A stretch of DNA of 64,000 bases, taken from Halostella litorea. GTDB lineage: Archaea; Halobacteriota; Halobacteria; Halobacteriales; Natronoarchaeaceae. Below, one piece after another: positions 52,486 through 57,372 of this stretch (the first letter of the stretch is position 1; each line of letters opens with the position of its first letter). The translations under genes and the position numbers were made by a program. Under the pieces are notes generated by a model. It was not told the DNA's origin. It saw only the letters and a program-made list of their open reading frames with translations, and searched no databases. Where the stretch lies: NCBI RefSeq assembly GCF_004785955.1, contig NZ_ML214300.1, positions 761,789 to 825,788 of the forward strand. Reading direction: 5' to 3'.

Positions 52486-52815
52486 TCAGGCCGCGAGGGC
52501 GCGCTCCGCCGCCGCCGCGGCGACCCGGACCGCCGCCAGCGGCAGGGCGACGAGGACGGCGGCCAGCGCCAGCGCGACGGCTGCCGCGCCCGCCAGGGGA
52601 CCGCCGACGACGGCGGCCAACGCCAGCGCGGCGGCGGCGGAGAGGGCGGCGGCGGCGAACAGCGCGGTGACCGCCGTGACGGCCAGCGCCGCGTCGAGGA
52701 CGGGCGGGGGCCGCCGGGCGCGGTCGGCGACGCCTTCGGCGGCGTCCGCGGCGGCGGCGGACAGTCGGTCGGCGAGCGGTGCGTCGTGTCGGTCTGAGTC
52801 GTGTCGTCGGAACAT
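52486..52815 (-). CDS. Small Ala-rich membrane protein
   Basis: The 109-residue frame has a charged N-terminus (MFRRHDSDRHDAPLADRLSA) and then about three hydrophobic segments of mostly Ala, Val and Leu from about residue 42. Hydrophobic periodicity and a charged tail suggest a real membrane protein, but Ala-rich frames can arise by chance at this G+C, so caution is needed. It is convergent with the enoyl-CoA hydratase (17 bases between stops). No TATA box is visible in front of it. Confidence 0.5.
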   Translation of the reverse strand: MFRRHDSDRHDAPLADRLSAAAADAAEGVADRARRPPPVLDAALAVTAVTALFAAAALSAAAALALAAVVGGPLAGAAAVALALAAVLVALPLAAVRVAAAAAERALAA

Positions 52816-52932: not shown

Positions 52933-53034
52933 TCAGGCGGCCCGGCCAGCCCCGAGGTAGGGCGGCCGGCCGTCCGTCGTGCGTGCGTCGGATCCGTGCC
53001 CCGGAAGCGTCACGGGGCGGGGGATATCGTGCAT
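52933..53034 (-). CDS. Short ORF (33 codons) after the tRNA-like element
   Basis: The frame begins MHDIPRPVTLPGHGSDARTT at ATG 53034 and ends GAGRAA with TGA. The ATG is the second to fourth base after the predicted acceptor end of the tRNA-like element at 53037-53083, so an RNA cut there would give an almost leaderless message. The peptide is Pro/Gly/Arg-rich without recognisable motifs. It is listed because of its position; coding is unproven. Confidence 0.25.
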   Translation of the reverse strand: MHDIPRPVTLPGHGSDARTTDGRPPYLGAGRAA

Positions 53035-53036
53035 AG

Positions 53037-53083
53037 GCTCCCGGCAGGAGTCGAACCTGCCCCCTCGCGGTACCCCTGGGAGC
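53037..53083 (-). ncRNA. tRNA-like element (acceptor stem plus T-arm), downstream copy
   Basis: On the minus strand GCTCCC (53083-53078) pairs with GGGAGC (53042-53037), and directly before the latter lies a T-arm GGCAGG-TTCGACT-CCTGCC (53061-53043), with a perfect T-loop consensus. Only 16 bases replace the D and anticodon arms, so it is not a working tRNA. It resembles the minimal substrate of tRNase Z. The base after the stem is C, and TATGCAC follows with the ATG of a short frame. tRNA-like elements cut by tRNase Z are known before 5S rRNA in Haloferax. Confidence 0.5.
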
Positions 53084-53091
53084 GGCGGCGG

Positions 53092-53394
53092 TCACGCCGC
53101 GTCGGCGACCTCGACATCCGCCACGTCGGCGACGCCGAAGCCGTCGGCGAGCGTCTCGCGGGCGGCCGCGGCGTCGGCCGGCCGCTCGTCGAACGTCAGG
53201 CGGACGGCGACGCCCACCTGCAGGTCGTTCAGGGTCGGGGTGACGCCGGTCAGGCGGTCGACGTCGGCCTCGGCGACGCCGTCGACGCGTTCCAGCACGG
53301 TCTCGGCGTCGCGCTCCAGGGCCTCGCCGTCGCGGGGCACCCGCAGTTCGATCTCGGCGGTCACTGTCGCCGCGGGCATCTGTCTGGCCTGCAT
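53092..53394 (-). CDS. Small alpha/beta protein between two tRNA-like elements
   Basis: The 100-residue frame begins MQARQMPAATVTAEIELRVP and continues with a helix (GEALERDAETVLERVDGVAE) and strands (LNDLQVGVAVRLTF), ending VADVEVADAA with TGA. The strand-helix-strand order looks like a ferredoxin-like or ACT-like domain. ATG 53394 is in the TATGCAG sequence that ends the upstream tRNA-like element; ATG 53379 (MPAATVTAEI) is the alternative. No family is recognised. The codon pattern is coding-like and the protein has real hydrophobic periodicity, unlike the flanking DNA. Confidence 0.65.
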   Translation of the reverse strand: MQARQMPAATVTAEIELRVPRDGEALERDAETVLERVDGVAEADVDRLTGVTPTLNDLQVGVAVRLTFDERPADAAAARETLADGFGVADVADVEVADAA

Positions 53395-53398
53395 ACTC

Positions 53399-53445
53399 CC
53401 CCGGCGCGAGTCGAACGCGCGGGTCCCGTGCGGGACGGTCCGGGG
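53399..53445 (-). ncRNA. tRNA-like element, upstream copy
   Basis: On the minus strand a T-arm GCGCG-TTCGACT-CGCGC (53420-53404) is followed by CGGGG (53403-53399), which can pair with CCCCG (53445-53441). Between lies a 6-base hairpin GTCCCG/CGGGAC with a 2-base loop (53436-53423). So the element has acceptor-like, extra and T-arm parts. After it comes GAGTATGCAG, with ATG 53394 of the small gene. The acceptor-like stem is shorter (5 bases) than in the other copy, so this assignment is weaker. Confidence 0.4.
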
Positions 53446-53720
53446 CCGCGGCGGGCTGCCGCGGCGGGGGTGGGGCGGTCGGTAGCGATACCTCTCCAGC
53501 GCCGTCGTGCTCGGCGACGGGCGGTGTCCGGGGACCGGACGGCCGTCGGCGGGAGCGCCAGCGGGGCGCGCGGGGCGGTCGCCACCGTCGCACGCCCGGG
53601 GCTCGCCGGGAAACGCCGTGAGGGGTCGGAGAACCGCGCTCGGCCCGACCCCCGTCGAGGGACGGACCCGTCCCCGGAACGGTGGAGTTCCGGAGAAACG
53701 GGCCGACCCTCGGCGGCGTC
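53446..53720. other. G+C-rich stretch without a clear gene
   Basis: Frames in this 275-base stretch are Arg/Pro/Gly-rich on both strands and show no hydrophobic core, motif, TATA box or Shine-Dalgarno site. It may be leader or spacer for the minus-strand transcript that starts near 53910. Nothing else is seen. Confidence 0.5.
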
Positions 53721-54908: not shown

Positions 54909-55160
54909 CTACAGGTAGTCCTGGTCCTTGAGCTGCTCTATCACGTCGTCGACGAACGCCTCCGCCGAGTCGTACGGGAAGTCGCCGCCGGGCAGCTTCG
55001 TGTTGAGCTCCATCGCCGTCATCGAGAAGTCGCCGGACTCGAACTTCGTTCCGGGGCCGTCGGGGAGCGCCGGGACGAGGTCCATCGGGCTGGAGATGGG
55101 GTAGTCGGCACCTTCGAACGCGTCGATCATCTGTTGCCGGAGGTCATCTTCGTCTGCCAT
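54909..55160 (-). CDS. MTH865-like small protein
   Basis: The 83-residue protein, MADEDDLRQQMIDAFEGADY onward, fits the MTH865 family (small EF-hand-like helical protein of archaea): PISSPMDLVPALPDGPGTKF and SMTAMELNTKLPGG. Function is unknown. It is convergent with the SDR gene and divergent from the acyl-CoA dehydrogenase. The A/T-rich bases TAAATATTAAATTTT on the complement (about 55179-55195) contain its promoter. Confidence 0.85.
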   Translation of the reverse strand: MADEDDLRQQMIDAFEGADYPISSPMDLVPALPDGPGTKFESGDFSMTAMELNTKLPGGDFPYDSAEAFVDDVIEQLKDQDYL

Positions 55161-56541: not shown

Positions 56542-56622
56542 GCCGGCCGCCCGTTACCCGGTCACGGAGCCCCGACCGCCGCCCCCGTCGTGCTTTTGCT
56601 CGCTGCCGCCGTACCGCCGCCC

Positions 56623-57372
56623 ATGAACGACGCCGACGTGACTGCCCTCGCCGAGGCGCTGGCCGCCGCGGACCGCGCCGTCGCGCTCACCGGTGCCGGC
56701 GTCAGCACCGCCTCCGGGATCCCGGACTTCCGCGGCGACGGCGGCCTGTGGGAGCGCTACGACGAGAGCGACTTCCACGTCCGGCGCTTCCTCGCGGAGC
56801 CCAGCGCGTTCTGGCGGGACTGGGTCGACCTCCACGCCGAGATCTCCGGAAACGCCGCACCGAACGCCGCCCACGAGGCGCTGGCCGACCTAGAGGCCGC
56901 CGGCCACGTCGACGCTGTGGTCACGCAGAACGTCGACGGCCTGCACGCGGCGGCCGGGGGCGAGCGCGTGGTGCGACTCCACGGCCGGGGCGACCGCGCG
57001 ACCTGCCGACGCTGCGACGCGTCGGTGGCGGCCGAGGCGGCGGTCGAGCGCGTCCGTGACGGCGAGGCCCCGCCGCGCTGCGACTGCGGCGGCCTCCTGA
57101 AGCCCGACACCGTCCTCTTCGGCGAGCGGTTGCCGGAAGCGGCGCTGTCGGCCGCGGAGAGCCACGCGGCCGGCTGCGACGCGATGCTCGTCGCGGGCAC
57201 CTCGCTGACGGTCGAACCGGCGGCCAGCCTCCCGCGGCGGGCGGCCGAGGGCGGGGCGACGCTGGCGGTCGTCAACGCCGAACCGACGCGGGCCGCGGAC
57301 CGCGCGGCCCACGTCTTCCGGGGGGACGTGACCGAGGTGTTGCCGGCGGTCGCCGACGCCGTGTCGGACTGA
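56623..57372 (+). CDS. cobB: Sir2-family NAD-dependent protein deacylase
   Basis: The 249-residue sirtuin has GAGVSTASGIPDFRG, QNVDGLHAAAG, the catalytic His in VRLHGRGD, and a small zinc site with CRRC and CDCG, the last pair one residue closer than usual (C-x-C). It removes acyl groups from lysines using NAD. In bacteria CobB-type enzymes reactivate acyl-CoA synthetases; here the gene lies near one, 5 kb away. ATG 56623 is preferred with TGCTTTTGC 24-32 bases before. Confidence 0.93.
   Translation: MNDADVTALAEALAAADRAVALTGAGVSTASGIPDFRGDGGLWERYDESDFHVRRFLAEPSAFWRDWVDLHAEISGNAAPNAAHEALADLEAAGHVDAVVTQNVDGLHAAAGGERVVRLHGRGDRATCRRCDASVAAEAAVERVRDGEAPPRCDCGGLLKPDTVLFGERLPEAALSAAESHAAGCDAMLVAGTSLTVEPAASLPRRAAEGGATLAVVNAEPTRAADRAAHVFRGDVTEVLPAVADAVSD

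Follow-up and report, generated by a model that had tools for sequence, protein, structure and literature searches.

Conserved tRNA-like elements directly before start codons in haloarchaea, candidate tRNase Z-processed leaders of near-leaderless messages

To our knowledge, a tRNA-like element (t-element) that gives an RNA its 5' end has so far been known only from 5S ribosomal RNA. In Haloferax volcanii, a tRNA-like structure lies directly before the 5S rRNA and a tRNase Z cut makes the 5S 5' end, according to PMC4326828 and PMC4946936 (original papers: Hoelzle et al., 2008, RNA 14:928 and 2012, Biochimie 94:940, as cited in PMC4326828). In the same species, crRNA is freed in vivo by RNase P and tRNase Z from an engineered t-element/crRNA/t-element cassette (PMC4326828, PMC4946936). 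The locus described here shares with the 5S t-element the acceptor plus T-arm shape, the TTCGANT loop and a distance of 20 nt from the T-loop start to the predicted 5' end of the downstream RNA; whereas the 5S element precedes a ribosomal RNA, this one precedes an mRNA start codon, and its cut is only predicted. It also resembles the engineered cassette, since a message stands between two elements, at 1 nt from the upstream and 8 nt from the downstream one, but the arrangement is natural, carries an mRNA, and has a second element that is not widely conserved. The t-element is thus known and its position before messenger RNAs is new, with the proviso that mRNA cases in H. volcanii might already be contained in the 2012 tRNA-like-element paper (Biochimie 94:940).

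The window analysed is a stretch of 64,000 nucleotides from Halostella litorea (NCBI RefSeq assembly GCF_004785955.1, contig NZ_ML214300.1, positions 761,789 to 825,788), and its minus strand carries, in this order, a tRNA-like leader element (TLE1), a 100-aa protein gene, a second element (TLE2), a 33-codon frame and a small Ala-rich, membrane-like gene. TLE1 (53396..53471) is a 76-nt junction, delimited from sequence, conservation, fold and covariation, in which the acceptor 5' strand ACCCCCG (53471-53465) is followed by two internal hairpins, a T-stem (53420-53416 / 53408-53404) around the T-loop (53415-53409), the acceptor 3' strand (53403-53397) and a discriminator-like G (53396). Taking the geometry of the 5S t-element as a guide (T-loop + 20 nt), the predicted tRNase Z cut would fall between 53396 and 53395 and leave 5'-U-AUG, the AUG being that of the 100-aa protein gene (53092..53394). 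TLE2 (53036..53083), a shorter acceptor plus T-arm element, begins 8 nt past the stop codon of this gene, its acceptor GCTCCC (53083-53078) pairing with GGGAGC (53042-53037) and its T-stem GCAGG (53060-53056) with CCTGC (53048-53044) around the T-loop (53055-53049). Both elements have a 5-pair T-stem around TTCGACT, seven acceptor positions, a discriminator-like base and T-ATG, with the T-loop starting 21 nt before the ATG.

An earlier reading of this DNA from its letters (hereafter the sequence-only reading) had pointed to two TTCGACTC motifs, each at the same distance from a TATGCA start, flanking a small gene and with a 6-bp acceptor in the downstream copy. The positions, letters and equal distance (21 nt), the flanked gene and the GCTCCC/GGGAGC acceptor were all found as described. 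The coordinates given for the elements were likewise correct, but the upstream one was understated: it extends over the whole junction and has an acceptor of its own, CCCCCG/CGGGGG, which that reading had not noted. The second TATGCA had also been taken to open a reading frame with a message of its own at 53034. This part of the reading is doubtful: the frame (52933..53034, minus) has only 33 codons, and its amino acids are not protected beyond the ninth codon in comparison with a close relative, the Halostella genome G003, so that a real gene is improbable here. Further along, the Ala-rich, membrane-like protein gene (52486..52815, minus) was called by its codon GC pattern and has no Pfam match, and similar small genes lie downstream of the 100-aa homologue in several other genomes. 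As side observations, an MTH865-like protein gene (PF07747, E 6e-31) is located upstream of TLE1 (window 54909-55160, minus), with a similar protein upstream of the 100-aa homologue in H. pelagica, and a tRNA-Pro(cgg) reported by ARAGORN at window 57282-57369 (plus) lies within a long frame (56590-57372) that looks by eye like a sirtuin-type gene and is probably a false call.

Evaluated by itself, the bare 8-mer TTCGACTC occurs at chance frequency (4 in the window vs. 3.8 expected). Of the 304 TTCGANT loops counted on the two strands of an 864-kb part of this genome, however, 7 have a 5/5 T-stem, and TLE1 and TLE2 are the only ones of these 7 followed by an ATG at 21 or 22 nt. Across the whole 3.75-Mb genome, 16 TTCGANTC loops precede an ATG at 21-22 nt, 3 of them with a 5/5 T-stem, namely TLE1, TLE2 and a T-arm before a phage-like gene on contig C7. 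Single-sequence folding energies (z-scores) are no better than those of shuffles, hence the evidence for structure is comparative rather than energetic.

This comparative evidence is strongest for TLE1. The gene and TLE1 are kept in 5/5 Halostella genomes, including the CCCCCG/CGGGGG acceptor, the hairpin CCGCGG...CCGCGG, the second hairpin and the T-arm, with one genome (G002) carrying CCCCTG/CAGGGG, i.e., a compensatory pair change in the acceptor. Within the order, 79 of the 195 genomes encode homologues of the 100-aa protein, and the search around these homologues that the sequence-only reading had proposed recovered a T-arm leader at 46 of the 70 homologous loci examined. The loci with a leader span about 17 genera and nine haloarchaeal families, as we tallied from the genome table. 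Their T-stems and acceptors come in many different sequences, and the T-loop precedes the ATG by 21 nt (30 leaders), 22 nt (13), 24 nt (2) or 19 nt (1). Halobacterium salinarum, a laboratory organism, is among them (L110, L059): there, the element-bearing gene encodes MATANQTVQITADLTMHVPRN..., and CTCCCGGCGGGCGG lies upstream of its AUG. One homologue of the 100-aa protein (L216) had been missed by the protein search and was recovered by the T-arm pattern.

Across 21 distinct acceptor/T-arm sets, a count that omitted sets with weaker acceptors, 97.2% of cells are paired, and double changes occur at 9 of 12 pairs (49 cells). None of 500 shuffles matched either the paired percentage or the double-change count, and slid structures paired at only 42-53%. 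Acceptor pairing is inflated in these numbers because the acceptor 5' strands were picked as best complements; the T-stem, unaffected by this choice, has three pairs with double changes, and 7/7 acceptors are found in 18 of 29 distinct leaders, whereas swapping the 3' strands gives 8 on average and shuffling the upstream DNA 3.9. From this sequence comparison, TLE1 is almost certainly a real, conserved RNA element.

Conservation of the T-arm and of its distance to the ATG, which the sequence-only reading had expected in related genomes, thus extends far for TLE1 but only to the nearest relative for TLE2, whose sequence is shared with G003 only among Halostella. Elements downstream of the 100-aa gene may matter too, as suggested by a genus (g21, Haloarcula-like, the name being our assignment) in which a different tRNA-like element stands 3' of the gene, some 390-416 nt from where the gene begins, and before an Arg-rich frame of 28-29 aa (L025, L027, L028, L030, L032, L049). 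This micro-frame is conserved as M(H/D)xxYLAAVIGRRRRDSKxRxQSRRTRRL.

To what extent are these elements tRNAs? With tRNA genes they share the T-arm, the 7-bp acceptor and, in some genera, a D-arm. In contrast to tRNA genes, the window elements have no canonical anticodon arm: other hairpins take its place, and no cloverleaf with a 7-nt anticodon loop was found. Neither TLE1 nor TLE2 is called a tRNA by ARAGORN (standard mode) or by Rfam at gathering thresholds, where the window also returned no leader or riboswitch match; lax thresholds added weak, non-credible matches only (e.g., Plastid-ycf2, tRNA-Sec). When introns were allowed, ARAGORN combined TLE2 with a distant 5' part into a tRNA-Gln with an 898-nt intron, which we rejected as an artefact of this loose setting, since it makes dozens of similar calls elsewhere. 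When the acceptor and T-stem are constrained, the leaders of Halostella, Halobacterium and other genera fold into junctions of three or four helices, and for most of them this fold is at the unconstrained minimum or near it. In some genomes the element is still tRNA-like (L061, L057, L065), with a D-arm and nearly complete tRNA shape retained in some genera, and a few relatives score as tRNA. By simple alignment, the closest counterparts of these tRNA-like leaders in the window's genome are tRNA-Gln, -Glu, -Arg or -Val, and anticodon arms vary from genus to genus. This suggests that the leader descended from a tRNA gene, of which the decoding part would have been lost and the part read by processing enzymes retained.

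Two further tRNA-like loci were noted along the way. At L061 (790-1480, minus, genome G091), the homologue sits amid several genes that are true tRNAs or resemble them (Lys, Glu, Trp, Pro-like), together with a 134-nt tmRNA-like match, possibly a tRNA interrupted by an intron or insertion. A stand-alone element elsewhere in the H. litorea genome (L131, i.e., G000:C1:220001-240000, 1606-1689, minus) has a 7-bp acceptor and the T-arm GTAGG.TTCGACT.CCTAC, lacks a canonical anticodon arm (tRNA-??? for ARAGORN) and has no ATG at 21 nt; it is possibly a small RNA.

The spacing before the start codon can be compared directly to that of the 5S t-element. In 15 of 15 5S loci of relatives with a recognisable T-loop, those of Halostella among them, 24 nt separate the start of this loop from GGCGGCC. 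Mature haloarchaeal 5S rRNA begins UUAAGGCGG, a UUAA-type start, which places the T-loop start 20 nt before the mature 5S start. The same T-loop + 20 position falls at the boundary before U-AUG at TLE1 and TLE2, and 1-2 nt before the AUG in leaders with a 21-22 nt spacing, so that, as read from the letters, the leader geometry is the same as that of the 5S t-element. In both window elements the acceptor stem also adjoins a T-arm, and the T-loop is of tRNA type. The sequence-only reading had likened this shape to known tRNase Z substrates, and it recurs as conserved RNA structures, with the ATG distance kept, before homologues of the same protein, which supports this part of that reading.

We therefore propose the following, by analogy with 5S rRNA. 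TLE1 would be transcribed as a t-element in which the D and anticodon regions are reduced or have given way to other hairpins. tRNase Z would recognise it and cut past the discriminator, 20 nt from the T-loop start, and the small-protein mRNA would then start with 5'-U-AUG (5'-UC/UU-AUG in other species), to be read by the ribosome as a near-leaderless message. A further cut, by RNase P, may occur on the 5' side of the element. TLE2 could play the same role, or RNase P could trim the message 3' end there, 8 nt past the stop. We consider it likely that tRNase Z cuts TLE1-type t-elements to release near-leaderless mRNAs; transcription, cut, enzyme and regulatory purpose are all parts that we infer. 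A search by AT content upstream of TLE1 gave no clear promoter, and the main text of PMC8303175, on processing sites in H. salinarum, contains no mention of tRNA-like leaders or tRNase Z.

To what genes is this type of leader attached? A pattern scan of 74 genomes returned known homologues, the missed homologue L216 and, at two loci, another gene family, that of the DUF5658 membrane protein. Among DUF5658 loci fetched by protein similarity in one haloarchaeal family (f7, which we take to be Natrialbaceae), 29 of 30 have a T-arm leader, at 21 nt (26 loci) or 22 nt (3 loci) from the ATG. Most of these loci also have an ATAACAA box about 75-125 nt before the ATG and upstream of the element, a position that would fit a promoter ahead of a transcribed element. 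A stricter pattern yielded 57 matches in 253 genomes vs. 1 for the reversed pattern, and these comprised, beyond DUF5658 and the 100-aa protein family, a Halorussus DUF6884 gene (L253), two putative secreted proteins (L258, L259) that come from two genera and look related by eye, and a few chance sites and ordinary tRNAs. With one or two loci each, the secreted-protein and DUF6884 contexts are weaker cases than DUF5658. The third full T-arm that lies 21 nt before an ATG in the H. litorea genome (G000:C7:17869-17894; L036/L174) precedes a phage-like gene encoding a zinc-finger domain of phage type, and the neighbouring gene holds DUF6884. Homologues of this contig C7 gene in other genomes lack the T-arm, hence this case is not conserved, and no relatives of the gene were found in viral contigs. 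A general haloarchaeal route to mRNA 5' ends, in which t-elements cut by the tRNA 3'-end enzyme would produce near-leaderless mRNAs of several unrelated genes, including DUF5658 and phage-like genes, appears to us evenly balanced between right and wrong.

The 100-aa protein itself is conserved from M1 in Halostella, and its structure model has a ferredoxin-like fold (pLDDT 89). It gave no credible Pfam or NCBIfam match, and searches by family, PDB sequence and fold returned a fold only, assigning no family or function; used alone as query against the genome contigs, the window protein found nothing, whereas the family alignment did match. Its top Foldseek matches include 2x3d, 3bpd and 2raq, which we take to be DUF211-type archaeal proteins and which are likewise small and ferredoxin-like, but at an E of about 0.01 or worse, a TM of about 0.3-0.5 and without sequence match. 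As modelled, these proteins and the 100-aa protein share the same broad fold only, which does not support placing the latter in DUF211. It is possible that this protein binds its own leader.

Several other readings of the leader can be weighed against these data. Chance resemblance in GC-rich DNA would account for the expected frequency of the 8-mer and for the unremarkable single-sequence folding, but is refuted for TLE1 by the rarity of full T-stems, the conservation, the covariation and the reversed-pattern control; at TLE2, the counter-evidence consists of two close genomes plus the shape of the element. Overall, we view chance as very improbable. One could also imagine that the T-arm DNA is conserved as an N-terminal peptide (FDSRR) of a longer protein, given that, at 21-nt spacing, loop and ATG share one frame, which is often open upstream. 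A spacing of 22 nt, found in 13 of the 46 leaders and at 3 of the DUF5658 loci, puts the same DNA in another frame, however, and single-base indels within the Halostella leader indicate that it is not coding, which leaves this peptide with practically no chance. The tRNA-like character of several copies and the position of L061 amid real tRNA genes are what one would expect of relics of tRNA genes or integration sites adjoining the gene by accident. The covariation contradicts this, and compensatory changes, constant spacing over many genera and the DUF5658 arrangement need selection, which makes such relics improbable.

Harder to set aside is a cis-regulatory tRNA mimic that stays uncut and is bound by the encoded protein, another tRNA-binding protein or a synthetase, its folding beside the AUG controlling translation. 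mRNA leaders such as that of E. coli thrS mimic tRNA to bind the synthetase and, like the haloarchaeal leaders, present a tRNA-like fold adjoining the start codon, but they mimic the anticodon arm, whereas the haloarchaeal leaders keep the T-arm and acceptor. Conservation of the whole junction within Halostella, beyond acceptor and T-arm, and the nearly complete tRNA shape in some genera would both suit an uncut mimic, as would the Halorussus homologues, which have no T-loop although several keep acceptor-like GCTCCCG/CGGGAG stems, with the start codon 9-160 nt further downstream. Since the stem is kept there and the T-loop lost, cleavage cannot be universal: either processing was lost in this genus, or the stem may have its own use without tRNase Z. 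Conversely, a cut is the better fit to the constant distance of 21-22 nt, to the consensus of the T-loop and to the geometry of the 5S t-element, the differing anticodon arms speak against synthetase mimicry, and a leader common to unrelated proteins speaks against binding by the encoded one. We hence judge an uncut mimic to be unlikely, though not negligible, and favour cleavage by tRNase Z.

Most haloarchaeal messages are leaderless, and the rule is that transcription starts at or beside the start codon. Elements such as TLE1 readily escape notice, since an open frame often runs through them and may be taken for coding sequence in annotation. If our proposal of tRNase Z cleavage is true, the t-element known from 5S rRNA would also serve mRNAs, leaderless messages would have a second, processing-based route beside transcription start at the AUG, and expression of the leader-bearing genes would be coupled to tRNase Z and RNase P. 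If this route is general, translation of these genes would be tied to the tRNA-processing capacity of the cell.
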